IMG/VR virus record: IMGVR_UViG_3300022208_000025
Span: 1-26,289 of that record
DNA length: 26,289 nt
Strand: one strand, 5' to 3'
From: a virus
Part shown: positions 52-17,245 of the stretch, one piece after another
Layout of the letters: each line of letters begins with the position of its first letter
How positions within the stretch are numbered: the first letter of the stretch is position 1
The notes under the pieces: model-generated
Seen by the model: the letters and a program-made list of their open reading frames with translations, nothing else
Database searches by the model: none
Told to the model about the DNA's origin: nothing
Translations under genes and position numbers: made by a program

Positions 52-127
52 GCCGGAGTAGCTCAGTTGGTAGAGCAACGCACTCGTAACGCGTAGGTCG
101 GAGGTTCGATTCCTCTCTCCGGCACCA
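52..127 (+). tRNA. tRNA-Thr (anticodon CGT)
   Basis: The 76-nt cloverleaf folds fully. The acceptor stem GCCGGAG pairs with CTCCGGC, followed by ACCA with an encoded CCA end. The D arm GCTC/GAGC, a seven-base anticodon loop CTCGTAA with anticodon CGT, and a T arm with the TTCGATT loop are all present. The closing pair of the anticodon stem is an A-C mismatch. A TATAAT box at 33-38 followed by a GC-rich discriminator suggests the native promoter. The integrase lies directly downstream, so this gene is very probably the attachment site. E. coli thrW, also tRNA-Thr(CGT), is a known phage target. Confidence 0.95.
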
Positions 128-203: not shown

Positions 204-232
204 TTGACACGTTGAATCGCATTTTATACGAT
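204..232 (+). promoter_or_regulatory. Predicted integrase promoter
   Basis: TTGACA at 204-209 and TACGAT at 227-232 are separated by 17 bp. Transcription would start near 239. This supports the integrase start at 270 over the in-frame ATG at 231, which lies inside the -10 box. Confidence 0.55.
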
Positions 233-269
233 GCAACTCCCCATAAATTCCCCACGGGATTACCCACGG

Positions 270-1280
270 ATGGCATCGATTACGAAGCACAAGGATGGAT
301 ACAGGGCGCAGGTGTATGTCAGCGGCCAGCGCGATAGTGCTGTGCGGCGTACTAAGCGCGAGGCGGAGGTGTGGGCGGCGGCGCGGGAGACTGAGCTGCG
401 GGCGCTGGCGGCGGCTTTGCCTGGTGTTCGGCATACGCTTGGGGATGCGTTGCAGCGGTATTCGGATGAGGTGTCGCCGACTAAGCGGGGCTGCAGGTGG
501 GAGCAGATCCGGATTGCGGTTTTTTTGCGGGACGATAATCTGCCATGTGGGCAGGCGATCGGGCGGCTGACGACGCCGCAGCTGGCAGATTGGCGGGATG
601 CCCGGTTGCGGCAGGTGTCGGCGGGGTCGGTTTTGCGGGAGATAGGCATTCTGGCGGCGGTGTTGGAGACGGCGCGGCGGGAGTGGCGCTGGATCTCTGT
701 GAATCCGATGGCGGATATGCGGAAGCCGAAGGCGCCGGAGCATCGGTCTGTGGTGATCTCGCGGCGTGAGGTGCGGCTGATGTTGCGGGAGATGGGTTAT
801 TCCAGCCGGAAGCCTGTGCGGTCGATGTCGCAGGCGGTGGCGGTGTGCTTTTTGGTGGCGCTGCGCACGGGGATGCGCGCGGGTGAGTTGTGCGGCCTGC
901 GCTGGGATCTGGTGCATGACGGGTATTGCACGTTGCCGGTGACGAAGACGAAGCCGCGGGATGTGCCGTTGACGGCGAAGGCGATGGCGCTGATCAGGCG
1001 CATGGATGGGTGGGATGGGGTATTGGTATTCGGCGTGAGTCCGCAATCGCTTGATGCCTTGTTTCGCAAGTACAGGAAGCGTGCCGGGCTGGAGGGTTTC
1101 ACTTTCCATGATTCGCGGCACACTGCGGCCACCTGGATCGCGGGGCGGATGAAGTCGAGCAATATTCCTGCGCAGCAGGCGGTGTTTGATATGTGCAAGA
1201 TGTTCGGGTGGTCTAGCGTGGACCAGGCGCTGGCGTATTACAATCCATCAGCGAAGGACATTGCGCTGCGGATCGGGTAA
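270..1280 (+). CDS. int: Phage site-specific tyrosine recombinase (integrase)
   Basis: A 336-residue integrase that would join phage attP to the tRNA attachment site. The N-terminal part (MASITKHKDGYRAQV) resembles the arm-binding domain of phage integrases, followed by a core-binding helical region. The catalytic set is visible: Arg in the RTGMRAGEL motif (about residue 203), Lys in the TKTKPRD hairpin, HxxR in FHDSRHT (about 280-283), a late Trp in FGWSS, and Tyr in LAYYNP (about 323-324). I chose ATG 270 because the upstream ATG at 231 overlaps the promoter. It lacks the extra helix of integron integrases as far as I can see, so it is not an IntI. Position beside the tRNA fits prophage integration. 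The 3' end almost touches the convergent gene at 1284. Confidence 0.93.
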   Translation: MASITKHKDGYRAQVYVSGQRDSAVRRTKREAEVWAAARETELRALAAALPGVRHTLGDALQRYSDEVSPTKRGCRWEQIRIAVFLRDDNLPCGQAIGRLTTPQLADWRDARLRQVSAGSVLREIGILAAVLETARREWRWISVNPMADMRKPKAPEHRSVVISRREVRLMLREMGYSSRKPVRSMSQAVAVCFLVALRTGMRAGELCGLRWDLVHDGYCTLPVTKTKPRDVPLTAKAMALIRRMDGWDGVLVFGVSPQSLDALFRKYRKRAGLEGFTFHDSRHTAATWIAGRMKSSNIPAQQAVFDMCKMFGWSSVDQALAYYNPSAKDIALRIG

Positions 1281-1283
1281 AAT

Positions 1284-1592
1284 TCAGTCGATAGATGATG
1301 CCAGTCGCGGCATCGACTTCCGCAGCCCAGCCAGAATACGAGACATGCCAATACGTGCTTTCCATGGCTTTCCATCCACTTTGACCAGGTAGCAATCAAC
1401 CCGATCGGTTCGGTACAGCTCGAGCGTATGCGTGACTTCGCCAAAATCAAAGTCTGTGACCGTGATACGCTTACGCAATTCCGGCAGCGGCTCCGCATAG
1501 TCTGGCTGCGGCCCGTTCAGGCGCAATCTCTCCTTTGCCTCGCGCATTCTGGCAAGCTGCTTGCGCCGTTTTTCACTTACTCTGTATGCCAT
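1284..1592 (-). CDS. Small phage protein of unknown function
   Basis: A 102-residue protein starting MAYRVSEKRRKQ. The N-terminal quarter is strongly basic and probably helical (Lys/Arg-rich to about residue 25), followed by a mixed alpha/beta part with an LYRTDRVDCYLVKVDGKPW stretch. I do not recognise the family. The start overlaps the last 20 nt of the methyltransferase gene, so the two are probably translationally coupled. A GGAG about nine bases upstream of the ATG supports the start. It is the last gene of the leftward early operon and ends 4 nt from the convergent integrase. Confidence 0.7.
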   Translation of the reverse strand: MAYRVSEKRRKQLARMREAKERLRLNGPQPDYAEPLPELRKRITVTDFDFGEVTHTLELYRTDRVDCYLVKVDGKPWKARIGMSRILAGLRKSMPRLASSID

Positions 1593-2367
1593 TTTCCTGA
1601 TCTCCAACCTTGCACGGTTCGGATATTCTGTAGTTATACGTCTCGGCAATCGCCGCGAATATCGGGTACGCCTGCAAAGGCACAACCGCGTTTCCAAGGG
1701 CTTTCAGCCGCTCACGTCTGTCCATCCGGGCGGAAAGCCCATCAACCACTCGACCCATTCCGGGTTGAGCACCCCATCCGCAGCCGTCCCGCCGAACCCT
1801 CGCGCCGCTTCTGAAAGCGTCCATCCCGCCTTTGCTGCGCTCGCCTCCGGTCGGTTCCCTGTTTTCCCTCGCGGGTCTTTCCAGTCGGTCGCCCTTGGCG
1901 TGGGCCAGTACGAAAACCCGCTCTCGCGTATGCGGGGCGCCTGCGGCGCAAGCCGGTAAAACAACCGGCCTGACGGCGTAGCCTGCTGCCTCCAGGTCAT
2001 CGCAAACGGAATCGAGGCCAATGGCAATGTGGCCTGTAACGTTTTCACCAACCACCCAAGCTGGTCGCAGGTCTTGCACGACCCGGAGCATTGCGGGCCA
2101 CAGGTGCCGCTCGTCGGCGTGGCCTGCGCGTCTCCCTGCTTGGCTGAACGGCTGGCATGGGTAGCCTCCATGCACAAGCTCAACTGCTGGCAGTTCGCTG
2201 GTGTCAATTGTTCGTACATCGTCGTAAATCCTTACGTTCGGCCACCGTGCCGCCAGCACCGACTTGCAAAACCTGTCGCGCTCGCAGAAAGCCACGGTCT
2301 TAAATCCCGCCCACTCGGCGGCAATGTCCAGTCCGCCAATCCCAGAAAACAAGCTCAGTGCGTTCAT
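1573..2367 (-). CDS. C5-cytosine DNA methyltransferase (Dcm family)
   Basis: A 264-residue enzyme transferring a methyl group from S-adenosylmethionine to cytosine C5 in DNA. Family motifs are in order: SAM-binding LFSGIGGLD (6-14), the catalytic loop GYPCQPFS with nucleophile Cys71, ENV (108-110), RERVFVLA, and LKALGNAVVP near the C-terminus. It is short for the family (usually 330 or more), with a small target-recognition region between the RERVF and LKALGN motifs, typical of phage versions. No restriction endonuclease is adjacent, so an orphan role in protecting phage DNA is likely. Its ATG overlaps the upstream stop as ATGA. A second, conserved-looking frame lies wholly within it (1704-2219). 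Confidence 0.92.
   Translation of the reverse strand: MNALSLFSGIGGLDIAAEWAGFKTVAFCERDRFCKSVLAARWPNVRIYDDVRTIDTSELPAVELVHGGYPCQPFSQAGRRAGHADERHLWPAMLRVVQDLRPAWVVGENVTGHIAIGLDSVCDDLEAAGYAVRPVVLPACAAGAPHTRERVFVLAHAKGDRLERPARENREPTGGERSKGGMDAFRSGARVRRDGCGWGAQPGMGRVVDGLSARMDRRERLKALGNAVVPLQAYPIFAAIAETYNYRISEPCKVGDQENGIQSK
1704..2219 (-). CDS. Overlapping gene nested out of frame in the C5 methyltransferase
   Basis: A 171-residue frame on the same strand as the methyltransferase but in another reading frame. It reads like a real protein: CGPQCSGSCKTCDQLGWL, TWRQQATPSGRLFYRLAP, FSYWPTPRATDW and a C-terminal LNPEWVEWLMGFPPGWTD. From memory, this set of motifs recurs in phage and metagenome proteins annotated as hypothetical or methyltransferase-associated, sometimes outside an overlap. 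The ATG at 2219 has an AAGGA about nine bases upstream. The region covers everything from the catalytic loop to the target-recognition part of the methyltransferase. Function is unknown; a partner or alternative recognition subunit is only a guess. Confidence 0.6.
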   Translation of the reverse strand: MYEQLTPANCQQLSLCMEATHASRSAKQGDAQATPTSGTCGPQCSGSCKTCDQLGWLVKTLQATLPLASIPFAMTWRQQATPSGRLFYRLAPQAPRIRESGFSYWPTPRATDWKDPRGKTGNRPEASAAKAGWTLSEAARGFGGTAADGVLNPEWVEWLMGFPPGWTDVSG

Positions 2368-2792
2368 GGTCGTGTAGCCGTATAACCCGTCGCTCCAGGG
2401 GACGCTTCGCCTGTCGGCTCGCGTCCCTGAGCTGTTGCGTTAGCCGCCGTCAATGCTTCGTATCTATCTTCCCCGTAAGCTTCTCTTACATATGTTGTCG
2501 GGAACGCTCCGCGATCACCTTGTTTTGCCGAAATGTACATACACGTATATCCAGAATTCTTTGGTGCTGGAACGGTCTTTGTCCATTCATGTTCCGGCAT
2601 GCCGAGAGGCCATTCGTACCCTTCCTCACGCACAACGCGCATAAATTCATGCGGGTCGTGGTGTCCTTTGCTCATCAGGATGTAGGTATCTTCACCAACA
2701 TTCATGATTTCCAGAGGGTATTTGGCGGCTAACCCTACGTGCAAGCGGGACTGCGCTACGGCGGGATTTGTGTCTTTTGTCTGTTCATTCAT
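2364..2792 (-). CDS. Phage protein of unknown function
   Basis: A 142-residue protein. I chose the third in-frame ATG (2792) because GGAG lies eight bases upstream; ATGs at 2798 and 2810 sit too close to or before it. The N-terminus carries the short motif NPAVAQSRL, which recurs as KPAVALSEL and KPAEAQSFL in two cassette genes to the right. The middle (EDTYILMSKGHHDPHEFMRVV) looks globular. The tail is rich in Ala, Thr and Gly. The stop overlaps the methyltransferase start. The 5' leader abuts the leftmost attC-like element, so this may be the last gene of the array or the first resident gene beyond it. Family not recognised. Confidence 0.75.
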   Translation of the reverse strand: MNEQTKDTNPAVAQSRLHVGLAAKYPLEIMNVGEDTYILMSKGHHDPHEFMRVVREEGYEWPLGMPEHEWTKTVPAPKNSGYTCMYISAKQGDRGAFPTTYVREAYGEDRYEALTAANATAQGREPTGEASPGATGYTATRP

Positions 2793-2810
2793 ATCCATAT
2801 CTCCGGTCAT

Positions 2811-2847
2811 AGGGCTGCAAGCGCAGCCCCTTCACTCCATGTTGGGC
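2811..2847 (+). repeat. attC-like site 0 (partial, right arm plus hairpin)
   Basis: A hairpin GGGCTGC/GCAGCCC (2812-2829) is followed by CTTCACTCCAT and GTTGGGC (2841-2847), matching the 3' arm of the complete sites further right. No matching 5' arm is seen on its left. It is the leftmost element of the array, and the stop of the gene starting at 3224 lies within it. Confidence 0.6.
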
Positions 2848-3224
2848 GTCTTAGGCTCATGAACCACGAACCAGCAACAGCCGCATTCAAAGTTCGCCGC
2901 AGGCCATTTTCTCCCGCTCTTCCGCTGTGGTGGATCGTCGTCATACCATGCGCGCCCAAACTCCTCCTCTATGGCATCGGTAATTTCGTCTATGCGCTCA
3001 TAAATCTCATCGCTCTTGAATTGGTATTTCGTATCAAGCCACGCCGAGTCAACCCGCACGACGTAGTACTGCGGCCGCGTGTTCAGCGGCTGTACGCCAA
3101 GCAAGGCTTTTCCATCTCCCCAGGTTCGCTCAATCAGGCGTGGCGAGACAAGGTATTTTCCGCCCCAAAATTCAGTCCTGTAGCGTTTTTCAACATGCGT
3201 CCGCAGTTCGTTTTCGGTTATCAT
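2832..3224 (-). CDS. Cassette gene: small protein of unknown function
   Basis: A 130-residue protein starting MITENELRTHVEKRY, with GGAG six bases before the ATG. The longer frame back to 3263 runs into the neighbouring recombination site and is rejected. The C-terminal part contains EIYERIDEITDAIEEEFGR, an amphipathic acidic helix, then FECGCCWFVV with three Cys. Family not recognised. The stop codon lies inside the leftmost attC-like element, which contributes the last residues (TPNME). It lies between attC-like sites 0 and 1. Confidence 0.72.
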   Translation of the reverse strand: MITENELRTHVEKRYRTEFWGGKYLVSPRLIERTWGDGKALLGVQPLNTRPQYYVVRVDSAWLDTKYQFKSDEIYERIDEITDAIEEEFGRAWYDDDPPQRKSGRKWPAANFECGCCWFVVHEPKTPNME

Positions 3225-3245
3225 TTTTTCTCCGTTGAAAAAGAC

Positions 3246-3330
3246 GCCCAACCCGGCGCTCAACTTTCACTCCGCTTCGCTGCGTCGGACTCCGCAAAAG
3301 CGCGGAGCCGGTTATTTCTGTTCGTTCGGC
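3246..3330 (+). repeat. attC-like site 1 (complete)
   Basis: The left arm is GCCCAAC, five spacer bases, then GCTCAAC. The right arm is GGTTAT, a spacer, then GTTCGGC. Between them are two stem-loops, including GGACTCCGC/GCGGAGCC. Comparing the arms, the left inner box has one extra C relative to the right one. In aadA-type attC sites this asymmetry marks the 5' arm, so the site points along the + strand. Confidence 0.75.
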
Positions 3331-3331
3331 G

Positions 3332-3601
3332 TCATTGCCGCACGCGCTTGAGGTTAAAAAATTGCCCTTCACTGTTCTGGTATGTACGCCGGAATTCGCC
3401 CTCGAATTGCGTCTTAAAACGCAGGCGCAGGGTCAGTTCGTTATCGACAGTTTTTCGATAGACACCGCCGATTTCCGTGCTTCGCCCTTGCGACTCCCAC
3501 AAGCCTTCCTCTCGTCTGCACTCGCTGTAATCAAACGGCTCTACCGCCGTGTCGTCCGGCAGGTTTTGAATCAGTTCAAGAAGTTGTTTCTTATCCATCA
3601 T
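3332..3601 (-). CDS. Cassette gene: small acidic protein of unknown function
   Basis: An 89-residue protein starting MMDKKQLLELIQNLPDD, with GGAG five bases before the first ATG. An N-terminal helix (DKKQLLELIQNL) is followed by a beta-rich part (DNELTLRLRFKTQFEGEF). The opening helix followed by DDT or GD and then beta strands is shared in style with the cassette proteins at 3879 and 5751, which could mean one small-domain family. The stop TGA falls one base before the right arm of attC-like site 1. It lies between sites 1 and 2. Confidence 0.72.
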   Translation of the reverse strand: MMDKKQLLELIQNLPDDTAVEPFDYSECRREEGLWESQGRSTEIGGVYRKTVDNELTLRLRFKTQFEGEFRRTYQNSEGQFFNLKRVRQ

Positions 3602-3616
3602 AGTTTCTCCGATCAC

Positions 3617-3700
3617 GCCGAACCCGGCGCTCAAGTTTGTTCCGGGCTTTCGCCCTCCACGGGACGCGCCTTCGGCGCGCCCCTTACCTTCACGTTAGGC
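3617..3700 (+). repeat. attC-like site 2 (complete)
   Basis: The left arm is GCCGAAC-CCGGC-GCTCAAG and the right arm CTTACCTTCAC-GTTAGGC (core box 3694-3700). An internal GGGC/GCCC hairpin and an apical stem closed by a TTCG loop lie between. It is nearly identical to site 10 (6229-6312) except in the apical stem, where a G-C pair here is a T-A pair there. That is compensatory change preserving a folded single strand, as expected for attC. Confidence 0.8.
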
Positions 3701-3879
3701 ACTTCATTTAATTCACCAGTGGTCAATATCGTCATTGTGTCCAAATCGATCCCGAGAAGTTCTCGGGCGAATGCCCTGCGAAAAGCATCTGCATCTCCGG
3801 TACTTACGTCCACACTGATCGTTATTTCAAGATCGTCTTTGAGGCTATATATCGCTCGTTTTAGGTCGATCACTTTCAT
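3631..3879 (-). CDS. Cassette gene: small protein of unknown function
   Basis: An 82-residue protein starting MKVIDLKRAIYSLKDD. The ATG directly follows GTTAGGC of attC-like site 3, and the ribosome-binding GGAGGG lies inside that site's arm, six bases upstream. Residues 1-59 look native (an N-terminal helix, then DLEITISVDV). The last 22 or so residues (from VPNVKVRG) are translated from attC-like site 2, where the frame finally stops, so the tail may be a non-functional extension. Family not recognised. Confidence 0.7.
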   Translation of the reverse strand: MKVIDLKRAIYSLKDDLEITISVDVSTGDADAFRRAFARELLGIDLDTMTILTTGELNEVPNVKVRGAPKARPVEGESPEQT

Positions 3880-3937
3880 GCCTAACCCTCCATTCCAGCG
3901 GGACCGCTACGCGGCCCCTGAATTACCTTGATGTGCG
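3880..3937 (+). repeat. attC-like site 3 (right core box degenerate)
   Basis: GCCTAAC at 3880-3886 starts the left arm, with the hairpin GGACCGC/GCGGCCC in the middle and TTACCTTGATG on the right, where a GTTRGGC box is expected but only GTGCGTC is seen. The left box touches the ATG of the gene ending at 3631. The loss of the right core suggests an old, inactive boundary. Confidence 0.5.
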
Positions 3938-4153
3938 TCAATCAGGCCAAAGATGGCAGCCGTGGCAATCATCGTCATCACCTCCTGACACTTTGCACTT
4001 CGCCCTTGCTTCTTCTTCTGTCATAGCACCACATCGCTGACAAGGTGGTTTGCTATAGTCTGGCTCGACGCACATCACGTCAGTCAATTCGGACAGCGCT
4101 ACTGCGGGTTTCTGGTCGTGCTGCGTCTGCCCTTCGGGCAAGTCCTTAAACAT
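3938..4153 (-). CDS. Cassette gene: Cys-rich small protein, possible zinc ribbon
   Basis: A 71-residue protein starting MFKDLPEGQ. Residues 15-24 carry the shared motif KPAVALSEL. The C-terminal half contains C-x2-C (CQRC), a further Cys, and C-x2-C (CHGC) after a GGDDDD turn, consistent with one zinc-binding site, ending HLWPD. An AAAGGTGGG stretch about six bases upstream serves as ribosome-binding site. It lies between attC-like sites 3 and 4. Function unknown; small zinc ribbons of this type are common among phage early proteins. Confidence 0.7.
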   Translation of the reverse strand: MFKDLPEGQTQHDQKPAVALSELTDVMCVEPDYSKPPCQRCGAMTEEEARAKCKVSGGDDDDCHGCHLWPD

Positions 4154-4170
4154 TTTAATCCCACCTTTCT

Positions 4171-4203
4171 GCGGCAGCGCCGCCGTTTACTTCGATGTTA
4201 GGC
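4171..4203 (+). repeat. attC-like site 4 (partial, right arm plus hairpin)
   Basis: The hairpin GCGGC/GCCGC (4171-4183) is followed by GTTTACTTCGAT and GTTAGGC (4197-4203). The left arm is absent or too degraded to recognise. The core box supplies the TAA stop of the ASCH-like gene. Confidence 0.55.
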
Positions 4204-4527
4204 CCATTCAATTTGCTGCCCCTCGAAAGGTAGCCCGTGCGTATTATTAAACCACGCTTGCATTTCCGCATGGCTAGAAAAACCATCAGCCCGCGCGAGC
4301 ATTTCGCTTGTTTCTGTGGATGGCCCTTCATAAATTTGCACCTCCTGAACGCGGGTGCATACGCTATTGCGCAGCGTTTCTTGCTTGCTTCGGTACGGCT
4401 TTCCAGTCCACTTACGCAAGCTCAGTTCATCGCCCGGCTTGCATCGCGCCGACAGCCTTATAGTTTGCTTCTTCTCTCCAGAGCGCACCAGTTCGGCGAA
4501 TTTATCTTGGAATAAAATGACCCTCAT
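4198..4527 (-). CDS. Cassette gene: ASCH-domain-like protein
   Basis: A 109-residue protein starting MRVILFQDKFAELVRSGEKKQTIR. The pattern of an N-terminal strand, helix with FAELV, then a QTIR segment, PGDELSLRKWTGKPYRS, and a C-terminal GLPFEGQQIEW matches small ASCH-domain proteins as I remember them; these belong to the PUA-like fold and are thought to bind RNA or modified nucleotides. GAGGTG about five bases before the ATG supports the start. The stop TAA is made by the GCCTAAC box of attC-like site 4. It lies between sites 4 and 5. Confidence 0.78.
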   Translation of the reverse strand: MRVILFQDKFAELVRSGEKKQTIRLSARCKPGDELSLRKWTGKPYRSKQETLRNSVCTRVQEVQIYEGPSTETSEMLARADGFSSHAEMQAWFNNTHGLPFEGQQIEWA

Positions 4528-4557
4528 CACCCACCTCTTTGTTGTTTAATTCAAACC

Positions 4558-4638
4558 GCCTAACCCGGCGCTCAAGGTTCGTTCCGCTTCGCTCCACCGG
4601 ATTCGCCTTCGGCGAACCGCCTTACCTCAGAGTTAGAG
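4558..4638 (+). repeat. attC-like site 5 (complete)
   Basis: The left arm is GCCTAAC-CCGGC-GCTCAAG and the right arm CTTACCTCAGA-GTTAGAG. The apical stem GATTCGCC/GGCGAACC is closed by TTCG and differs from sites 2 and 10 by paired changes. The right box provides the TAA stop of the adjacent cassette gene. Confidence 0.75.
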
Positions 4639-4833
4639 CGCAAGCCCGCATCCCATACCAGAGTGATTGCCGTACTCATCTTCTGTTGGTATTTCATGTT
4701 CGCAAGTGCCGTGCTTCGTACACCATCCGCTCTTGCACCAGCGGCAGCAATCATCCGTCGAAGAAATGCGCTCTAACTCGTCGGTCAAAAAGGACTGCGC
4801 CTCGGCGGGCTTGGTTGGTTCAGTTGTTTGCAT
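4633..4833 (-). CDS. Cassette gene: Cys-rich small protein
   Basis: A 66-residue protein starting MQTTEPTKPAEAQSFLTDELERI. The N-terminal KPAEAQSFL is the third copy of a motif shared with the genes ending at 3938 and 2364. It is followed by CCRWCKSGWCTKHGTCEHE, dense in Cys and His and probably zinc-binding. The ATG has GGAG nine bases upstream. The TAA stop is formed by the core box of attC-like site 5. Family not recognised; the Cys spacing recalls restriction-alleviation (Lar-like) proteins only loosely. Confidence 0.7.
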   Translation of the reverse strand: MQTTEPTKPAEAQSFLTDELERISSTDDCCRWCKSGWCTKHGTCEHEIPTEDEYGNHSGMGCGLAL

Positions 4834-4857
4834 AGTTCAGTTCTCCTCTTGCGGTTC

Positions 4858-4891
4858 GGTTGTGGCGCAGCCTCTTACCTTCAAGTTCGGC
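4858..4891 (+). repeat. attC-like site 6 (partial, right arm plus hairpin)
   Basis: A short wobble-containing hairpin GGTTG/CAGCC (4858-4872) precedes CTCTTACCTTCAA and GTTCGGC (4885-4891). The right arm closely matches sites 2 and 10, but no left arm is recognisable. Confidence 0.55.
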
Positions 4892-4892
4892 G

Positions 4893-5213
4893 TCACAACT
4901 GCACCGCCACCACGGCCTTGCCTTCCAGCGGGTTCGGCTGGGCCTTGTAGCGCTCAAACATAGCCGCCCTGTCGGCCTCCGTAGGCTCGGGCAATTCATG
5001 CTCGCCGGTGTGGGTGGTGTCGTATTCGCCGTCCCAGAATCGCGGGTCGGTTACGTGCTCGCGCAGCCACGGTTCAACCGCTCTGGCCGCCCTCGGCAGC
5101 ATGTGCGTCATCAACCCGCGCTCGCCAGTGATCGCCTCCAGGTCTTCGTAGATGTGTCCGATTTCGGTATGCAGCCTTCCTGTGGTCAGGTTGCGCAGTC
5201 GCTGGATGTTCAT
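4893..5213 (-). CDS. Cassette gene: small protein of unknown function
   Basis: A 106-residue protein starting MNIQRLRNLTTGRLHTEIG, preceded by AGGAG eight bases upstream. It looks mainly helical and acidic, with EYDTTHTGEHELPEPTEAD in the middle and a second helix with AMFERYKAQPNPLEGK. The TGA stop is followed at once by the core box of attC-like site 6. It lies between sites 6 and 7. Family not recognised. Confidence 0.72.
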   Translation of the reverse strand: MNIQRLRNLTTGRLHTEIGHIYEDLEAITGERGLMTHMLPRAARAVEPWLREHVTDPRFWDGEYDTTHTGEHELPEPTEADRAAMFERYKAQPNPLEGKAVVAVQL

Positions 5214-5256
5214 GGTCAATCTCCTGTTCAAAAGTCAGTGCTGGTGGGACGGCGAC

Positions 5257-5318
5257 GCCGAACCCATCCATCGAGAGGGACGCCGCTAAAGCGTCGCCCC
5301 TCATGTCAAAAGTTAGGC
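5257..5318 (+). repeat. attC-like site 7 (short form)
   Basis: GCCGAAC (5257-5263) and GTTAGGC (5312-5318) bound a 62-bp element with the stem GGGACGC/GCGTCGCCCC. The inner boxes are less conserved than in sites 2 and 10. Such variation in the centre with fixed outer boxes is usual for attC families. Confidence 0.65.
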
Positions 5319-5319
5319 A

Positions 5320-5463
5320 TCATTCGCAGTTGAGCCAATAAAGACCAGCAGCCAACGCACCTACAGCAACCACAGATTCAAAGTGCAATCCAAATCCAAA
5401 CGCAAGCGAGGTTGTTAGTGCTCCAAGCGCGACAATCAAATTTTTTTTTATTCGTCCAGTCAT
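5320..5463 (-). CDS. Cassette gene: 47-residue membrane peptide
   Basis: Found by reading the frame by hand. Starts MTGRIKKNLIVALGA and ends GLYWLNCE. After a short basic N-terminus there are two hydrophobic stretches (LIVALGALTTSLAFGFGL and VVAVGALAAGLYWL) joined by HFES, so a two-helix hairpin in the inner membrane is likely. GGAGAG four bases before the ATG supports translation. The stop overlaps the base next to the core box of attC-like site 7. It fills the cassette between sites 7 and 8. Small hydrophobic proteins are frequent in cassette arrays; function unknown. Confidence 0.68.
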   Translation of the reverse strand: MTGRIKKNLIVALGALTTSLAFGFGLHFESVVAVGALAAGLYWLNCE

Positions 5464-5484
5464 TTCGCTCTCCATTGAAAAAAT

Positions 5485-5544
5485 GCCTAACCCACCGTTG
5501 AAGGCGCGACCGCCTTCGGCGTCGGCCTTAACTATTTGTTAGGT
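5485..5544 (+). repeat. attC-like site 8 (short form)
   Basis: GCCTAAC (5485-5491) and GTTAGGT (5538-5544) bound a 60-bp element with the central stem GCGAC-CGCC/GGCGTCG and a GGCCTTAACTAT right arm. The right box provides the TAA stop of the next cassette gene. A GCCTTAACTAT stretch recurs at about 6680 as a possible remnant of one more site. Confidence 0.65.
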
Positions 5545-5751
5545 CCCGTCATCGCCTTCTGTCGGATCGACAGCAAAGGATCTCTTGCAGCAGTTTCCGT
5601 CAGCGTCGATATACAACGGCCCGTCCTTGCTCTTGTAGACCGCGTCTGTGGAAATTGCCCTAGTGATACCTTCCCACGTAACTTCGACTTCAATGTCTCC
5701 GTGTTTTCTCATCCTGTTTTGCAGTGTCGCAATAAGTTTAGAAATCTTCAT
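5539..5751 (-). CDS. Cassette gene: small protein of unknown function
   Basis: A 70-residue protein starting MKISKLIATLQNRMRKHGDIEVEV. The longer frame from 5790 begins inside attC-like site 9 and lacks a ribosome-binding site, while AAGG precedes the ATG at 5751. The layout (helix, then HGDIEVEVTWEG strand and a short DGPLYIDADG strand) resembles small phage proteins with a KxxDLI...YGDxEV pattern. The TAA stop is formed by the core box of site 8. It lies between sites 8 and 9. Confidence 0.72.
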   Translation of the reverse strand: MKISKLIATLQNRMRKHGDIEVEVTWEGITRAISTDAVYKSKDGPLYIDADGNCCKRSFAVDPTEGDDGT

Positions 5752-5780
5752 CGCCTTATCCTTTGCTACGTTGAAAAAAA

Positions 5781-5873
5781 GCCTAACCATGCATTCGAGA
5801 GCGACGGCGCAAAAGCGTGGCTGGTTTCTTGTTTGTCGGTCATAGTGCGCGCCCCCTCAAATCTACGTTGGGC
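5781..5873 (+). repeat. attC-like site 9 (long form)
   Basis: GCCTAAC (5781-5787) and GTTGGGC (5867-5873) are the outer boxes. The left arm continues CATGCATTCGAG, and the right arm reads CCCCCTCAAATCTAC. The interior is less clearly paired than in other sites. The last residues of the gene starting at 6199 are encoded in its right arm. Confidence 0.6.
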
Positions 5874-6199
5874 GCTTTGCGCGGAAGGTTCAATTTTTCC
5901 GCCCACTCCCAAAGTTCAGCGCCGGATTTAAATCGACTTTGGAGGTCAGTTAAAAATTGTTCACGTTTTTTTGTTTGCTTAAGGTGTTGTCCGCTCCAGT
6001 CTTCTGCGCCGAGCAATTCACGCGCGTCAATGTGTATAAATCTGAGGGTCGGAACGCAAACGACCATCCAGAATGGTGCTGGGATACCGTCTTTGAGGCT
6101 GTGGTGAACTGTCACAGGGTCGCCCCCAAGCAGTCCGCATGAATTAATTTTCCCGCACATAAAATCCGCGTTGATTGTTCCACCCATATTGATGTTCAT
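5840..6199 (-). CDS. Cassette gene: small protein of unknown function
   Basis: A 119-residue protein starting MNINMGGTINADFMCGKIN, with AAGGA about seven bases upstream. The segment NADFMCGKINSCGLLGG and the later HIDARELLGAEDW suggest a mixed fold, and the C-terminal third is helical and basic. The last ten or so residues come from the arm of attC-like site 9. It lies between sites 9 and 10. Family not recognised. Confidence 0.7.
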   Translation of the reverse strand: MNINMGGTINADFMCGKINSCGLLGGDPVTVHHSLKDGIPAPFWMVVCVPTLRFIHIDARELLGAEDWSGQHLKQTKKREQFLTDLQSRFKSGAELWEWAEKLNLPRKAPNVDLRGRAL

Positions 6200-6228
6200 T
6201 GAGTTTCCTTCGCTTCGTTATAAAAACC

Positions 6229-6312
6229 GCCTAACCCGGCGCTCAAGTTTGTTCCGGGCTTTCGCCCTCCACGGGACTCGCCTTCGGCGAGCCCCTTACC
6301 TTTGCGTTGGCT
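6229..6312 (+). repeat. attC-like site 10 (complete)
   Basis: The left arm is GCCTAAC-CCGGC-GCTCAAG and the right arm CTTACCTTTGC-GTTGGCT. It is almost a copy of site 2, with the same GGGC/GCCC hairpin and TTCG loop. The only stem difference is a coupled base-pair swap (GACTCGCC/GGCGAGC here). It is the rightmost clear element of the array. Confidence 0.8.
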
Positions 6313-6648
6313 TACTTCTCCAGCATCACCAGGTTCCGCGCCATCAGCTCGCGCGACTGCATGGCCAGAATCGTGTCCACCAGTTCGGCTTTGCTCGTCT
6401 CCACCTGGCGCATGCCCCGCGTGCGCAAGTCTTCCTCCGGCAGCGTCCGTGTCCCGTTGGCGTTCCCATCGAACTGTCGGGTACTTCTGCCGGAGGTTTT
6501 TGGTTGCCCCGCAGTGATTGCACTTATGGGGCCACTGCGGCGGGTCTGTTGGCAGCATGACTCCGGTCTGCTCCATCACGCCGGTATTGCAGTCGTCGCA
6601 GACGTAATCCACGCCGACCGTCTTCACTTCGTAGGTTCTTTCGCTCAT
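6312..6648 (-). pseudogene. Zinc-finger phage protein with apparent frameshift
   Basis: The first part (MSERTYEVKTVGVDYVCDD) has two C-x2-C pairs (CDDC and CNHC), a likely zinc ribbon, up to KYPTVRW. From there the same frame degenerates into Gly/Arg/His-rich text running into attC-like site 10. The frame shifted by one base reads TRTLPEEDLRTRGMRQVET and ends NLVMLEK at a TAA at 6312, next to the site. Removing one G of the GGG at 6465-6467 would restore one protein of about 111 residues. Alternatives are a sequencing error, or a second gene starting at TTG 6428 behind GGAGGA. The upstream ATG at 6648 has AAAGGA before it. Confidence 0.6.
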
Positions 6649-6692
6649 CGCTCTATCCTTTCTCCGATTAACCAGCCGCCTTAACTATACCG

Positions 6693-6911
6693 CTAAACAC
6701 TCACCGCCAGCGCTTCGTCGATCTGGCCGATGGGTATTTGTCCGATGCCGTTTAGTTTGAATGTTCCCGCCCGCACCAGTTTTGTCATGGTGCCCTCGCT
6801 GATGCCTAGCATTTCGGCGGCTTGTTTTTGGGTGACGCATGCCGGGCGCGGATGGGTTTCGACATATAGCCTAACGGCGGCGGTGGCGACTTTTAGTGTT
6901 TGTGGATCCAT
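6693..6911 (-). CDS. HTH DNA-binding protein (excisionase-like)
   Basis: A 72-residue protein. Residues 25-50 (CVTQKQAAEMLGISEGTMTKLVRAG) form a helix-turn-helix of the MerR/excisionase type, followed by a short wing (FKLNGIGQIPIGQIDEAL). It could act as recombination directionality factor for the integrase or as an early regulator. It sits in the leftward operon 20 nt downstream of the lysozyme-like gene. Excisionases usually lie closer to int, so the role is uncertain. Confidence 0.75.
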   Translation of the reverse strand: MDPQTLKVATAAVRLYVETHPRPACVTQKQAAEMLGISEGTMTKLVRAGTFKLNGIGQIPIGQIDEALAVSV

Positions 6912-6930
6912 GATGATTCCGTTCGGTTGG

Positions 6931-7260
6931 TTATTCGGTGTGTTCTAACCTGATGTAGCAGGTCCAGTGATTGCCCAGCCCGTTGTCGATGGCCCATTCG
7001 AGTAGCTTGACCTGGTGGATCTGGTTGTTCCATTCTGGCTTGCCCAGCCCCCAGTTTTGCAGCTTGGCGAGGCGGGCGAAGCGGTAGAACGTCTCGCGCT
7101 GAAATTGGGCGATGCCGCAGCTTTTGCCGCCGTCGCTGCAGACTTTGGTGCGGTATCCTGATTCGCATTCGAGGATGTCGAGGATCAGCCTGGCATCGGC
7201 AGCGAGGGCAGCGGCTGGGCTGATGGCCAGCATGGCGAGCAATGTGCGCAGGGTTTTCAT
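6931..7260 (-). CDS. Secreted lysozyme-like (transglycosylase fold) protein
   Basis: A 109-residue protein starting MKTLRTLLAMLAISPAAALAAD, a typical signal peptide with a cut after about residue 20. The mature part opens LILDILECESGYRT, then GGKSCGIAQFQRETF, matching the catalytic Glu-Ser and GIAQF motifs of soluble lytic transglycosylase/lysozyme-like domains. It is short for the family. Cys residues may pair in the periplasm. I chose ATG 7260, which overlaps the upstream stop as ATGA, over an earlier frame start at 7287. Placement in the early operon rather than the lysis module is unusual; a role in wall remodelling is inference. Confidence 0.75.
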   Translation of the reverse strand: MKTLRTLLAMLAISPAAALAADARLILDILECESGYRTKVCSDGGKSCGIAQFQRETFYRFARLAKLQNWGLGKPEWNNQIHQVKLLEWAIDNGLGNHWTCYIRLEHTE

Positions 7261-7481
7261 GAGATCGTGTTCTGCGCGTTCTTCCACGCTTCGCGGGGCG
7301 CGTGGTTCAGTTGGCGATAGAAGCGGTAGTTGAGGATCAGCCGCGGCACTTTGCGCAGGGCGGTTATCCTTGTACGCATGCGCTGGCAGGTGTGCACGAG
7401 GTCATCCAGCAGCCAGTCGATAACGGGGCTGGCCGAGGGCATGGTGTGCAGCCTGGGGAGGTGGGTGCTGTGTTTCATCAT
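7257..7481 (-). CDS. Small basic phage protein of unknown function
   Basis: A 74-residue protein starting MMKHSTHLPRL. It is rich in Arg and His with a central helix (VIDWLLDDLVHTCQRMRTRITAL) that is amphipathic. It overlaps its neighbours on both sides by four bases (ATGA arrangements), so it is translationally coupled in the leftward operon. Family not recognised. Confidence 0.62.
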   Translation of the reverse strand: MMKHSTHLPRLHTMPSASPVIDWLLDDLVHTCQRMRTRITALRKVPRLILNYRFYRQLNHAPREAWKNAQNTIS

Positions 7482-7660
7482 GCCGCCACCTCGCTCGCTT
7501 TCAACAATGGCCGGCTGGTGAGGGTGCGCAGCTTGGCGGTATCGTCCAGGTCGGGATATGTCCGCAGGGCGATCTGCATCGCCTTGACGCTGCTCTGTGC
7601 GATGATGTTGCGGGTGATCTTTTGCTCGGCGGTGGCTAATGTGACGATGTGTATGCGCAT
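7478..7660 (-). CDS. Small phage protein of unknown function
   Basis: A 60-residue protein starting MRIHIVTLATAEQKITRN. The ATG at 7660 has GAGG six bases upstream and is preferred over 7672. It is mainly helical with a C-terminal LTSRPLLKASEVAA. Its stop overlaps the next ATG. Family not recognised. Confidence 0.62.
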   Translation of the reverse strand: MRIHIVTLATAEQKITRNIIAQSSVKAMQIALRTYPDLDDTAKLRTLTSRPLLKASEVAA

Positions 7661-7668
7661 GATTGGCC

Positions 7669-7770
7669 TCACTTGAAAAAAGCTAAATAAACCAGTCCGC
7701 AGACCAGCGTGTCGTCGTCGAGGTGGGTCAGGTCGCGGTTGGCAAGTGCGAATCTGATTCTTGAGTTCAT
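7669..7770 (-). CDS. 33-residue phage peptide
   Basis: Found by reading the frame by hand: starts MNSRIRFALANRDLTH and ends VCGLVYLAFFK. The ATG overlaps the upstream stop as ATGA, and GAGGTG precedes it by five bases. It fills the gap between two coupled genes exactly, which supports it. Function unknown. Confidence 0.5.
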   Translation of the reverse strand: MNSRIRFALANRDLTHLDDDTLVCGLVYLAFFK

Positions 7771-7985
7771 TCGATCACCTCAAAAATAGCCCGCTGCATC
7801 GGTGCGGGCTTGCCGTGTTGCTGTTCGAAGCGCTTGCGCATGTCCTTGACGAAAATCTTCATCCCGCGCAGTACAGCGTCGGTGGTGGTGGCGCGCTGGA
7901 AGCTCCAGCCGCTGCGCCACAATCCGCTCTGCTTGTATGCCTCGCGCAATTCGCGCTCGGTGTAGTTTTCGTTCGGTTCTGGCAT
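7767..7985 (-). CDS. First gene of the PL operon, unknown function
   Basis: A 72-residue acidic-then-basic helical protein starting MPEPNENYTERELREAYKQ. GGAGG lies four bases before the ATG at 7985; longer frames back to 8045 have no such site. It includes TERELREAYKQSGLW and RKRFEQQHGKP helices. It is the promoter-proximal gene of the leftward operon, the place of lambda N, but I see no arginine-rich N-type motif. About 145 nt of leader separate it from PL. Confidence 0.65.
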   Translation of the reverse strand: MPEPNENYTERELREAYKQSGLWRSGWSFQRATTTDAVLRGMKIFVKDMRKRFEQQHGKPAPMQRAIFEVIE

Positions 7986-8137
7986 ATCGCCTCCGTGTCC
8001 GTGTGGGCGCGCCTGGTAAGAGGAGAAACCCATCGCGCCCTGCAATCGGTGAATGGTGGCACCGCCTTGCCTGCCCTGCGCCCGCTTTTTGTAACTTTGG
8101 GTTGATAAAAATCGCGGGCGGCGAGGTAGCGGGGTGA

Positions 8138-8167
8138 ATAATATCCATAGGTGGGTATCCTTGTCAA
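8138..8167 (-). promoter_or_regulatory. Leftward early promoter PL
   Basis: Read on the minus strand, TTGACA (8162-8167) and TATTAT (8138-8143) are separated by 18 bp. Both boxes are near consensus. Two operator-like sequences cover the spacer and the -35 box, so repressor binding would block it. Confidence 0.82.
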
Positions 8168-8182
8168 CCCATAAACGGGTAT
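8142..8182. promoter_or_regulatory. Left operators OL (two sites)
   Basis: Site 1 (8142-8158) contains ATCCATAGGTGGGTAT and site 2 (8166-8182) ACCCATAAACGGGT. Both are imperfect palindromes of the same form as three sites at OR, with shared consensus ACCCATAAATGGGT. They are 24 bp apart centre to centre and overlap PL, as in lambdoid phages. Confidence 0.78.
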
Positions 8183-8189
8183 TTGTGAT

Positions 8190-8225
8190 AAAATTAAACC
8201 GCAGGGGTGTCCTGCGATTTAATTT
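8190..8225 (-). terminator. Terminator between lysogenic operon and PL
   Basis: The stem CGCAGG/CCTGCG (8200-8216) is flanked by T-rich sequence in both directions (GTTTAATTTTAT on the minus strand). It would end leftward transcripts of the repressor-lipoprotein operon before PL. The remaining stretch up to 8384 holds no convincing gene; it contains a further AGAGGGC/GCCCTCT inverted repeat near 8247-8275. Confidence 0.55.
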
Positions 8226-8384
8226 GGGGGTGTGATGAAGCAGTTTAGAGGGCGCTTGGCTGGTGATTGATGCCCTCTCCCGCAGTCATGCCGTCATTGT
8301 TGCCGTTTGCATATAGTTTGCCAGCATGAGATTGGGCATCAAGAACGACGATATAGCGCATTTATATTTGTCTCATAAGTGCAT

Positions 8385-8753
8385 TTACTGGCATGCCGTT
8401 ACCGCATCATCATAGTCGCCCAGTCCGCTGGCGGATTGCCTGTAATATTTAATTTGTACTTGATTATCAATTTCAATTATATCGACCAGCGCGATGGTAT
8501 TTGTATTTCCTGCTGTGGCGGTAGTTGTGGCAGTTATTGCGTAACCATTTGGTTTCATGCTGGTTGAGACGGGTATGCTGGATAATGCGAAAAAAGGTTT
8601 TGAGTTTTCCCATTTGTCTGCGATGCAGATGGCAACTTCTTTGGCGGATTTTTCACTGAATAGGTTTAAATCAGGCCGTTGGCTGCGTCGATCTGCTGGG
8701 GTGGCGCATGCGGCAAGCAGGGCGATCAGGATTGAGGCAATAATGATTCTCAT
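8385..8753 (-). CDS. Predicted lipoprotein in rex-like position
   Basis: A 122-residue protein starting MRIIIASILIALLAACATP: a short hydrophobic signal ending in the lipobox LAAC, so it should be lipidated at Cys16. The mature part (about 107 residues) has a DLNLFSEKSAKEVAICIADKW helix, then alternating strands ending DDAVTACQ. It is the last gene downstream of the repressor on the same strand, like rexAB of lambda, so it is probably expressed in the lysogen. Phage lipoproteins expressed this way often block superinfection (Cor, Llp types), but no specific family is recognised. The start overlaps the membrane peptide stop as ATGA. Confidence 0.72.
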   Translation of the reverse strand: MRIIIASILIALLAACATPADRRSQRPDLNLFSEKSAKEVAICIADKWENSKPFFALSSIPVSTSMKPNGYAITATTTATAGNTNTIALVDIIEIDNQVQIKYYRQSASGLGDYDDAVTACQ

Positions 8754-8914: not shown

Positions 8915-9316
8915 TTATTGCGCGTCACCTGTTTTCTTTTTTTGTCTCGGGTATTGTATGGACAATACTTTTGCCATGCCTATCAGTTGTTGGATCCCTT
9001 GGTCGCTCATTGTGTTGACCTGCTCAAATAATTCTTTTTCAGTGAGAGAGTAGGTTGGTACCGGTTCTTTGGCTACTAGAGGAACTACGTTTCCCTCGCT
9101 GGGCGGCGCTGACAGCAAGTCTTCAACCCTGCGCCCGAACGCCCGCGCGATGTCGCACAGGTTGGTGATCGTCGGGTTTCCATCTCCGTTTTTTACGCGC
9201 TGGATTGTACCAAACCCGACCCGCGATTTGATCGACACCTTTTTAATTGTGTCCAGGTTTGGGTGTTGATCCATCCAGGCATTCAGGTTGGCCGAGATGT
9301 TATCTGTAATCCGCAT
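8915..9316 (-). CDS. Phage repressor (XRE-family HTH, no protease domain)
   Basis: A 133-residue protein. Residues about 18-68 form an XRE helix-turn-helix (LDTIKKVSIKSRVGFGTIQ, then GNPTITNLCDIARAFGRRVEDLL). The C-terminal half (PVPTYSLTEKELFEQVNTM...) is helical, with no S24 Ser-Lys peptidase. Self-cleavage on RecA activation is therefore not expected, and induction must use another signal or an antirepressor. It lies between the OL and OR clusters and points left, divergent from the Cro-like gene, as in lambda. No strong ribosome-binding site precedes ATG 9316, so PRM transcripts may be nearly leaderless. Confidence 0.83.
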   Translation of the reverse strand: MRITDNISANLNAWMDQHPNLDTIKKVSIKSRVGFGTIQRVKNGDGNPTITNLCDIARAFGRRVEDLLSAPPSEGNVVPLVAKEPVPTYSLTEKELFEQVNTMSDQGIQQLIGMAKVLSIQYPRQKKKTGDAQ

Positions 9317-14902: not shown

Positions 14903-15479
14903 AGTTGCGCTGCGCCAGCGCGCGCTCAAAGTTACTTCGGCAGAACTGCCGGTGCTGGAAACGCACGGCGGAGCCGGACGCATCTATGAACGCTGCTATG
15001 ATACGCGGGTCGGGGTGGTGCTGGAGAAAAAGCCGGAAAAGGCTGAGCACCTGGCGAAGCAGCGCCCGACTTGGCGCGTGTATCAATGCGACAGTGCCAA
15101 GGCGCTGGCCTGCGGGCTGGCGAATGATCTCGCCTTCGGTTTGGTTGATATTGATCCATACGGATCGCCCTGGCCCATCCTCGAAGCGTTGTTGTTGAAA
15201 TCGCGCAGACAATGGCCTGACGTGGTGCAGATCGTGGTAAACGATGGGCTGCGGCAGAAATGCAAGATGGGCGGAAGTTGGAACGCGGGCGACCTGCGCG
15301 AGATGGTCGAGCAATACGGCAACAACCTGTATCCGATCTATCTGGAGGTGGCGCGCGAGAAGTTGGAAAAAATAGCCGGTCAAGCGGGATTCAAACTCAC
15401 CGGCTGGGTTGGTTACTATTGCGGACACGCTGGAGACATGACCCATTACTGGGCCACGCTCCAGAAGGTGAATCAGTGA
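14871..15479 (+). CDS. Methyltransferase-like phage protein (DPYG motif)
   Basis: A 202-residue protein starting MKKDNSTIRLKVALRQRAL. ELPVLETHGGAGRIYERCY recalls a SAM-binding motif I, RVYQCDSAKAL motif II/III, and FGLVDIDPYGSPWP the catalytic DPFG/DPYG motif known from the Trm1-like tRNA methyltransferases. Its substrate (DNA, RNA or other) cannot be told. It overlaps the end of the ParB-like gene and its stop overlaps the convergent radical SAM gene by seven bases. There is no terminator between these convergent genes. Confidence 0.65.
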   Translation: MKKDNSTIRLKVALRQRALKVTSAELPVLETHGGAGRIYERCYDTRVGVVLEKKPEKAEHLAKQRPTWRVYQCDSAKALACGLANDLAFGLVDIDPYGSPWPILEALLLKSRRQWPDVVQIVVNDGLRQKCKMGGSWNAGDLREMVEQYGNNLYPIYLEVAREKLEKIAGQAGFKLTGWVGYYCGHAGDMTHYWATLQKVNQ

Positions 15480-16288
15480 TGCTGTTTGACGCGCAAGGGA
15501 TTGTGGTATCCGGGCGGCAGGAAGGGCTGCAAGTCCTTCTTGATGTAATGCGCCACGCCAAGCCGGTTCACCATCTCCAGGATTCGGTGCGTGTAGCTTT
15601 CCCAGTCAGTCGTCTTCGTCATTGGCAGATAGTTCGCGCGCCCGATCTTGTACAGATTCACGAACTCATGAGTCCTCTCGATGATGTCGAGACTGGATTC
15701 TGTATTGAGCGTCGGCTCCAGACTCACCCAGGTGAATATCCCGGCATGGTGAAACGTGCGCAGCGCGTCCATGCGGTCTTTGGGAAGCGCCGCGCCAGGC
15801 TCCCACTTGCGCGAAAAATCAACATCGAGTGTCGTCATGGTACTGGCGAATGCGTCGCGGTCTGGCCTGAACAGATCGAGGTCGCGCATGGCTCGCGTCC
15901 CGCCTTTGGTCAGCGTGCAGATGCCCATGCCATGATCTTGCAGGATCGTGATCGTGCTGCGCGTGAGCGAGTTGTCGTCCGGGTGATAGGGGTCTGTCGT
16001 GAACGCGAGCATTACTTGCCCGTTTATGCCTGCCGCCTGATACTTGCGCGCATCCTTGAGCAGTGCCGCCTTATAGTTCGGGCGAGGCGCTGCGCCCTCA
16101 TTGAATGCCGATCGATCCATGCGCAGCACGGACGGCACATAGCAGTACGCGCACTTGTGTCCGCATCCACGGTATGGGTTGGTAGCCAGAGGCGCATATT
16201 CCCCTGCCTGTCCGCGTGGCGCGTAAATGGTGGAACACCCCGGCAGGGCGGTGTCGATTTCTTCTTTGATGTCGAAAAGTTTATTCAT
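15473..16288 (-). CDS. Radical SAM protein (SPL-like)
   Basis: A 271-residue enzyme. The cluster motif CGHKCAYCYVP (C-x3-C-x2-C) binds the 4Fe-4S cluster that cleaves S-adenosylmethionine. NPYRGCGHKC, FTTDPYHPDD, LTKGGTRAMRD and VSLEPTLN match the radical SAM family related to spore photoproduct lyase (Rv2578c type), often annotated as DNA repair photolyase. The real substrate in phages is not known to me. It is the last gene of the leftward 19.2-15.5 kb operon, behind a terminator-like hairpin, so it may be partly attenuated. Confidence 0.82.
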   Translation of the reverse strand: MNKLFDIKEEIDTALPGCSTIYAPRGQAGEYAPLATNPYRGCGHKCAYCYVPSVLRMDRSAFNEGAAPRPNYKAALLKDARKYQAAGINGQVMLAFTTDPYHPDDNSLTRSTITILQDHGMGICTLTKGGTRAMRDLDLFRPDRDAFASTMTTLDVDFSRKWEPGAALPKDRMDALRTFHHAGIFTWVSLEPTLNTESSLDIIERTHEFVNLYKIGRANYLPMTKTTDWESYTHRILEMVNRLGVAHYIKKDLQPFLPPGYHNPLRVKQHH

Positions 16289-16300
16289 GACTTTGGCTCC

Positions 16301-16327
16301 AAAAATGCCGCCGGCATTGCCGGCGGC
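16301..16327 (-). terminator. Intrinsic terminator or attenuator upstream of the radical SAM gene
   Basis: On the minus strand a perfect nine-pair stem GCCGCCGGC/GCCGGCGGC (16307-16327) with a three-base loop is followed by ATTTTTGG. It lies between the clamp gene and the radical SAM gene, only 13 bases before the latter's ATG, so it could limit expression of the last gene. Confidence 0.72.
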
Positions 16328-16336
16328 GTATTGTCG

Positions 16337-17215: not shown

Positions 17216-17245
17216 ATCAATCTCCTTTTCAGGTTGGTTTGGTTA

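Follow-up and report, generated by a model that had tools for sequence, protein, structure and literature searches.

The window, by which we mean the whole 26,289-bp stretch of viral DNA analysed here, opens with a plus-strand tRNA-Thr(CGT) gene (52..127; ARAGORN) that together with its upstream DNA is 92-93% identical to Gallionellaceae tRNA-Thr over ~95 bp (97% for the tRNA alone) and is a probable left prophage attachment site. A plus-strand phage tyrosine integrase follows (231..1280; PF00589, E=1.4e-14), and beyond it lie minus-strand genes: a C5 cytosine DNA methyltransferase (1573..2367; PF00145, E=6.8e-39), a series of small genes interspersed with attC sites, fixed non-cassette leftward early phage genes that hold no attC (6312..8753; phrog_9369, phrog_914, SLT and HTH_17 matches) and a repressor-like HTH protein (8915..9316; PF01381, phrog_3949/phrog_8). 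With integrase, repressor, primase, TerL and portal genes in the same record, the phage is a temperate one and its leftward early operon does contain the array, as the first-pass annotation had proposed; that annotation was also correct in seeing no integron integrase, since TIGR02249 finds no match in the whole record and the tyrosine integrase is of phage type.

The sites were located with a covariance model (R1) built only from 29 attC of Gallionellaceae chromosomal integrons, all adjoining intI, whose helices show covariation among these source sites; it was run with filters off on both strands of the full window. Twelve matches are found at 2380-6312, all on the plus strand and 11 of them at E-values from 1.7e-14 to 1.1e-4, and the rest of the window yields on either strand only chance-level matches (E 2.5 or worse). 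The elements display R''-L''...L'-R' boxes, a left arm with an extrahelical base, and covariation-supported pairing, and two of them reach 55-61 bits with intact GTT cores: the attC array, suspected before from the letters alone, is confirmed.

The array begins with attC 1 (2380..2445; 26.6 bits, E=3.5e-5), 13 bp upstream of the start of the operon-distal methyltransferase gene at the array end. The first 24 residues of cassette gene c1 (2364..2798; phrog_10472, E=3.2e-25), which starts at 2798, are encoded by attC 2 (2727..2847; 50.9 bits, E=7.7e-12), and its homologue in L327 begins past this leader. Genes c2 (2832..3224) and c3 (3332..3601) flank attC 3 (3246..3330; 32.5 bits, E=8.6e-7); attC 4 (3617..3700; 60.7 bits, E=1.7e-14) contains the stop codon of c4 (3631..3879); and attC 5 (3880..3936; 24.8 bits, E=1.1e-4) is followed by c5 (3938..4153), which starts with a leader peptide inside attC 6 (4070..4203), the weak member of the set with a degenerate left arm (13.5 bits, E=0.13). 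Next come the ASCH-domain protein c6 (4198..4527; PF04266, E=1.9e-5; phrog_8581, E=4.2e-14), attC 7 (4558..4638; 34.6 bits, E=2.2e-7) and c7 (4633..4833), whose start and leader peptide lie within attC 8 (4771..4891; 27.5 bits, E=1.9e-5), then the DUF7736 gene c8 (4893..5213; PF24875, E=1.1e-18), attC 9 (5257..5318; 43.4 bits, E=8.7e-10) and c9 (5320..5463; weak phrog_36897 match, E=0.0043), coding for a small hydrophobic protein that, judged from its sequence, is probably membrane-bound. The operon-proximal part consists of attC 10 (5485..5544; 31.9 bits, E=1.2e-6), c10 (5539..5751; phrog_10692, E=1.6e-5), attC 11 (5781..5873; 40.8 bits, E=4.6e-9), c11 (5840..6199) and the terminal attC 12 (6229..6312; 55.6 bits, E=4.0e-13), which is 94% identical to attC 4 over 81 bp. 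Genes c2 to c5, c7 and c9 to c11 are ORFs with ribosome-binding sites.

This map refines the earlier description in several respects. The array does occupy the range 2811-6312 first given for it, but a further attC at 2380-2445 extends it to the left; of the eight complete and three right-arm-only elements counted then, the three supposedly partial ones possess left arms at 2727, 4070 and 4771, which overlap the 5' ends of minus-strand ORFs. Inner CTCAAG and CTTACC boxes are the L boxes of some attC but not of all, and the unit spacing of 226-483 bp is reproduced when measured core to core.

One could read these elements instead as RNA or DNA hairpins that resemble attC and serve another role, in termination, translation initiation or RNA processing. 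Start codons indeed lie inside 39 of 200 viral attC examined, and when eight window attC were folded as DNA, several bottom strands folded somewhat better than shuffled sequences; however, three of the eight did so barely or not at all, giving no sign of selection for an RNA hairpin, R1 was derived from chromosomal attC beside intI, and in relatives whole units are inserted beside intI exactly at the AAC/GTT core, all of which makes this reading exceedingly improbable. An Rfam scan of the window matched the tRNA and, below threshold, an antisense RNA, but no attC family.

Polarity of the cassette genes

In a canonical array the genes run parallel to attC and away from intI. All cassette genes of the window lie on the minus strand, antiparallel to its plus-strand attC, and across 43 deduplicated viral contigs 183 cassette genes are likewise reversed and 5 run in the same direction as attC, reversed genes forming the majority in 42 of the 43; these counts come from a home-made codon-usage gene caller, with which the minus-strand Pfam and PHROG matches agree in the window. 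The same model and caller applied to chromosomal integrons give 64 genes in the same direction and 19 reversed. The codon-usage model was used because longest-ORF calls are noisy in GC-rich DNA; strand calls of the latter kind (34 same, 62 reversed) were discarded for this reason. Antiparallel genes are thus a general feature of phage arrays, one that the first-pass annotation overlooked.

This polarity bears directly on a rival account of the locus, namely that it is an ordinary CALIN, a piece of a host chromosomal integron captured by a phage. The window attC are of Gallionellaceae type, IntI is present in 57 of 100 sampled genomes of this host family, and other phages are known to hold CALINs and captured integron pieces (PMC9892861). 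Host arrays, however, are mostly parallel, whereas those of the phages are antiparallel, and capture of a host array is therefore disfavoured by the orientation of the genes both in the window and in phage arrays at large. A second argument against it comes from the integrases of related viruses.

Integron integrases, attI and cassette exchange in related viruses

Relatives of IntI are encoded at 68 viral loci. In the IntI tree 45 of them form a virus-only clade (SH-aLRT 99) that includes no chromosomal IntI, and the nearest IntI among 300 order-level genomes is at most 65% identical to this phage clade; together with the polarity of the arrays, such a clade renders capture from the host very improbable. 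IntI relatives are found in only 9 INPHARED records, and none of them reaches 60% identity. Near the viral IntI loci 101 of 103 attC lie on the strand opposite intI, and in the intI-bearing relatives the attC are found upstream of intI with their genes antiparallel to them. Furthermore, an attI-like motif, AAC-TTAAATTC, occurs in 31 of 60 viral loci as against 0 of 28 Gallionellaceae loci, and a short conserved attI is frequent beside the intI of the virus-only clade.

Most IMG/VR records are metagenome fragments, and intI is present in 4 of the 44 phage-array records searched (G112, G126, G135 and G145). The last of these belongs to a tailed temperate phage: it encodes TerL, portal, head and tape measure proteins and a phage integrase, which its IntI adjoins.

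Near-identical phages provide snapshots of cassette gain and loss: the junctions of the differing cassettes fall precisely on the AAC (G^TT) core, insertions at attI included. L232 and L233 differ by a 521-bp cassette inserted at CTAAC| beside intI between flanks that are 100% identical, and whole-cassette differences also distinguish L214/L215, L206/L209 and L219/L220/L221. Exchange at the GTT core, as proposed at the outset, is therefore observed in related phage arrays (L232/L233 and L214/L215) rather than at the window's own sites.

Among the viral cassettes are genes for Mom, methyltransferases, Lar and Acb2/Tad1, and the recognisable cargo, judged by its sequence, appears to be largely counter-defence, a share seen within arrays alone. 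The chromosomal integrons of Gallionellaceae carry toxin-antitoxin, TIR and Mrr genes. For most cassette cargo no function is recognisable.

An intI-less array and a proposed reversed phage integron

The window record contains neither intI, nor an attI beside it, nor the phage-type attI motif, and its 12 attC, clustered within 3.9 kb where two would suffice, therefore represent the CALIN form. Searches for close relations gave little: no phage nearly identical to this one was found, relatives by phage integrase (L322-L324) have no attC, homologues of the cassette genes are nearly absent from the fetched loci, and c1 occurs outside arrays in L327/L328. In host genomes, elements located at this tRNA-Thr have no attC between the tRNA repeats, INPHARED phages give no BLAST match to a window attC, and a search of PLSDB plasmids with a window attC gave none.

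Such a locus could be a dead remnant, in which intI and attI have been lost and immobile attC are kept as spacers or have been grown into by genes. The lack of both components, the degeneracy of several attC under R1 and the three ORFs that start inside attC all fit this description. Against it, intI-less phage arrays are common and many still hold well-formed attC, the two best sites of the window retain high scores and intact cores, and a host IntI could act on them in trans; we regard a dead array as possible, if on the unlikely side. A remnant of this kind is compatible with the reversed-type phage integron class.

In light of these results, we consider it highly probable that the cassette array here is that of a reversed-type phage integron in its intI-less form. 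The array part of this type, with antiparallel genes and attC inside a phage operon, is found in the window, whereas an intI of the virus clade at the distal array end is found in the relatives and not in the window. The attC are ordinary integron sites, whose folded bottom strands an integron integrase would recombine, and the genes of these phage cassettes point to the attI/intI end, antiparallel to attC; since they run toward that end, transcription would proceed from the early leftward promoter (PL) at the far end and not from Pc. In intI-bearing relatives intI follows the cassettes and is oriented the same way, and the short conserved attI between array and intI would serve as the entry point for new cassettes. 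Selection for co-directionality may have brought about the reversal. The window array itself may be a remnant, or may be moved by an IntI of the host or of a co-infecting phage, since any mobility of its own would require IntI supplied in trans.

More broadly, temperate phages of Betaproteobacteria seem likely to own an integron lineage, with its IntI clade, its attI and flipped cassettes read from an early promoter, through which counter-defence genes are traded, the opposite of the storage of defence and toxin-antitoxin genes in their hosts. If so, the flipped polarity would separate phage and host cassette pools functionally, a phage-owned integron would explain the one-by-one swapping of small early and anti-restriction genes, and these arrays would be both a natural test case for conserved cassette polarity and an extensive source of counter-defence genes still to be sampled.

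Comparison with known integrons

Integrons are known as bacterial platforms, and phage cases have so far been read as captured fragments. The first-pass statement that attC arrays are hardly known in phages is outdated: a survey of 10,705 phage genomes by Qi et al. (2023) yielded 17 CALINs as well as 3 complete integrons; five of the phage attC proved active with IntI1, and methyltransferases were among the cassettes (PMC9892861). They interpreted these arrays as captured bacterial pieces, the cassettes of TJE1 and PH101 having the typical bacterial layout (PMC9892861). The arrays described here share with that set the attC arrays in phage genomes and the methyltransferase cargo, but their genes run against attC, their intI falls in a virus-only clade and, where seen, adjoins a phage integrase, and they reside mostly in metagenomic temperate phages. 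Phage CALINs are hence already known, while we found no published report of the reversed, phage-encoded type.

The sedentary integrons in chromosomes of Gallionellaceae and further Betaproteobacteria resemble the phage systems in attC sequence and structure and in intI-attI-attC polarity; they differ in that their genes are mostly parallel to attC and directed away from intI, and in their attI and cargo. With class 1 mobile integrons the phage type shares the IntI family (TIGR02249) and the principle of attC recombination, the phage IntI being ~56% identical to a class 1 IntI on a P1 record, but not the divergent array driven by Pc. A further comparison is the "reverse integron" of Treponema denticola, where intI and the cassette genes also run in the same direction; the first cassette gene there directly follows intI and ends with a stop codon in the attC R'' box (PMC4909258, PMC7691350). 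That system, however, flips intI and has its array downstream of it with genes parallel to attC, an arrangement not found in the intI-bearing relatives: the phages flip the genes within the cassettes, which lie upstream of intI and are directed toward it.

attC sites and the probable host of the phage

The first-pass annotation had read part of the early operon as an attC-like cassette array, a reading that held up against an attC detector made independently of the window. IntI is present in 57 of 100 Gallionellaceae genomes, and 29 attC sites adjoining intI on IntI-bearing contigs of this family were aligned and converted into a calibrated covariance model (R1); changes on both sides of the alignment's R and L helices exceed nearly all shuffles. 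Scanning both strands of the window with filters off, we find 12 R1 sites between 2380 and 6312, all on the plus strand and 11 of them with E ≤ 1.1e-4, while scores outside this interval are at chance level only. The phage elements resemble host attC (host GCCTAACCCTACGCTCAAGTTCGC...GGGACGCGCCTTCGGCGCGCCCCTTAGCTGCACGTTAGGC vs. window GCCGAACCCGGCGCTCAAG...GGGACGCGCCTTCGGCGCGCCCCTTACCTTCACGTTAGGC), and at the sequence level the identity of the sites is established. R1 returned no match at E ≤ 0.1 on six related array-less phage loci (L043, L044, L046, L051, L063 and L067).

The window is a complete IMG/VR record of 26,289 bp with the gene content of the left portion of a temperate phage: tRNA-Thr, tyrosine integrase, C5 methyltransferase, the leftward early operon and a repressor-like gene, followed by rightward genes for a CII-like protein, primase, TerL and portal. 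Because the tRNA-Thr and its upstream DNA match Gallionellaceae genomes at 92-93% identity over ~95 bp, and the nearest primase in named genomes belongs to a Gallionellaceae MAG (72%), the host is probably a member of this family. In three Gallionellaceae genomes (G102:C23, G630:C31 and G631:C15) the 3' portion of this tRNA-Thr recurs 15-42 kb off, as expected for elements integrated at that tRNA; the stretches between the repeats yielded no attC.

Within the early operon, the gene at 6931-7287 (minus strand) matches a transglycosylase SLT domain (PF01464, E = 1.2e-4), an unusual location for a lysis-type domain, and p1 (phrog_9369; 6196-6648, minus strand) has an apparent frame change, its PHROG match spanning the first ~65 residues and the second frame running on to a stop at the edge of attC 12 (6229-6312, plus strand). 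A sub-threshold match to an R1162-like plasmid antisense RNA (17208-17280, minus strand; 40.4 bits against a gathering threshold of 55, E = 8e-4) sits within a 1,314-aa ORF (15260-19204, plus strand) that has no match in PHROG or Pfam.

Polarity and content of the cassettes

The strand of an attC is informative because R1 is asymmetric, with an extra C in the left arm. In the window attC lie on the plus and genes on the minus strand, the latter assigned from ribosome-binding sites, Pfam/PHROG matches (ASCH, DUF7736, phrog_10472 and phrog_10692) and a codon-usage caller trained on long ORFs, which also gave one low-scoring 32-aa plus-strand ORF. Scored by this model and caller, 64 genes of chromosomal arrays run parallel to attC and 19 antiparallel, against 2 and 133 in viral loci found by an attC pattern, related phages and the window together, and 3 and 90 in viral loci found independently via IntI. 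With duplicates and the window removed, the reversed polarity is established for 42 of 43 viral contigs by gene majority (5 parallel, 183 antiparallel genes), the sole exception being L236, whose IntI lies in a virus-only clade and whose two scored cassette genes are parallel to attC. Reversed genes form a minority of chromosomal cassettes (19/83 over all host loci; e.g., L168 and L170), and some of these could be phage-derived.

Three window ORFs start inside an attC, so that their predicted 21-28 N-terminal residues are translated attC bottom strand, containing PAVAQSRL, PAVALSEL or PAEAQSFL; in locus L327, the homologue of cassette gene c1 (2364-2798, minus strand; phrog_10472) starts directly past the leader. 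Of the reversed start codons in viral loci, 39 fall inside the 200 attC sites examined. Two adjacent cassettes of L021 (1690-1941 and 1931-2188) have near-identical initial peptides (..SKDHKAAAEPPLDCRVG) beginning inside attC, a further instance of predicted attC-encoded leaders. The majority of the 133 reversed phage cassette proteins have no Pfam match; where a match exists, it is mostly to Mom, Lar or a methyltransferase (N6/N4, Dam or C5), and also present are a single Acb2/Tad1 hairpin, MazG, PAPS reductase, DHH and a dGTP/dATP hydrolase domain. Among 72 chromosomal cassette proteins, the families recovered are BrnT/BrnA, TIR, Mrr, SUKH and HTH. We claim no enrichment over ordinary phage early regions, since those carry methyltransferases too.

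IntI and cassette movement in related phages

IntI exceeds the TIGR02249 cut-off in 4 of 44 viral records searched, and a scan with one of these four led to 68 viral loci. There, 101/103 attC lie on the strand opposite intI, and upstream of it in the loci inspected; this is the normal integron layout with only the genes within cassettes flipped, which therefore point towards intI. In a quick-search tree whose viral loci were collected with a query from the clade itself, a virus-only clade groups 45 viral IntI (SH-aLRT 99), and when 300 genomes of the order were searched independently, no IntI exceeded 65% identity. Catalytic motifs were found in 41 of the 44 full-length clade members, the remaining three being missed by the text pattern only. 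Phage record G145 encodes TerL, portal, major head, tape measure and a phage integrase, with intI ~160 bp from the latter; of the 89 other large proteins encoded at 24 clade loci, phage integrases are matched by 21, and further matches include tail fibre, endolysin, terminase and RecE families. In a named phage record, Virus Rctr41k (L259, KX853513), an IntI relative annotated xerD is co-directional with the surrounding small genes; R1 found no attC there at E ≤ 0.1.

Related loci differ by exact insertions. L232 and L233 share two 100%-identical stretches (580 and 1,095 bp), between which L233 carries 521 additional bp encoding two genes, immediately before intI; the joints (marked ^), ...GGGCTAAC^GTCGGC... 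and ...CGCCCAAC^AGGAATTC..., fall at the reverse complement of the G^TT core. The inserted cassette's end recurs on the array's far side (L233 60-115 and 1190-1215), and this cassette apparently occurs in two copies. L215 has two cassettes more than L214, both with joints at AAC^ and one adjoining intI (AAC^TTAAATTCAACGACACC). In L206/L209 and L219-L221/L220, flanks of 99-100% identity enclose a difference of several complete cassettes. The post-core sequence adjoining intI, AAC^TTAAATTC(A/G)ACGACACC, is common to many phages, its loose form occurring in 31/60 viral, 0/28 Gallionellaceae and 2/30 class-level loci; we read it as a putative phage attI. A search for this motif in the window found none.

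Proposed mechanism and known systems

IntI1 acts on folded bottom strands, and the phage IntI would work likewise, as in bacteria. The array would be transcribed from PL, the early leftward promoter, and flipped genes may have been selected by co-directionality with the operon. Because the window has no intI, its array would either be moved in trans or be a remnant, both compatible with the present data. Five attC from other phages function with IntI1, and CALINs and captured integrons in phages are already known (PMC9892861). No phage-owned integron carrying flipped cassettes is described in the literature searched, preprints and most subscription journals being outside its scope. In the 'reverse integron' of Treponema the flipped element is intI rather than the cassette genes (PMC4909258, PMC7691350), whereas in the phage arrays the cassette genes themselves are flipped.
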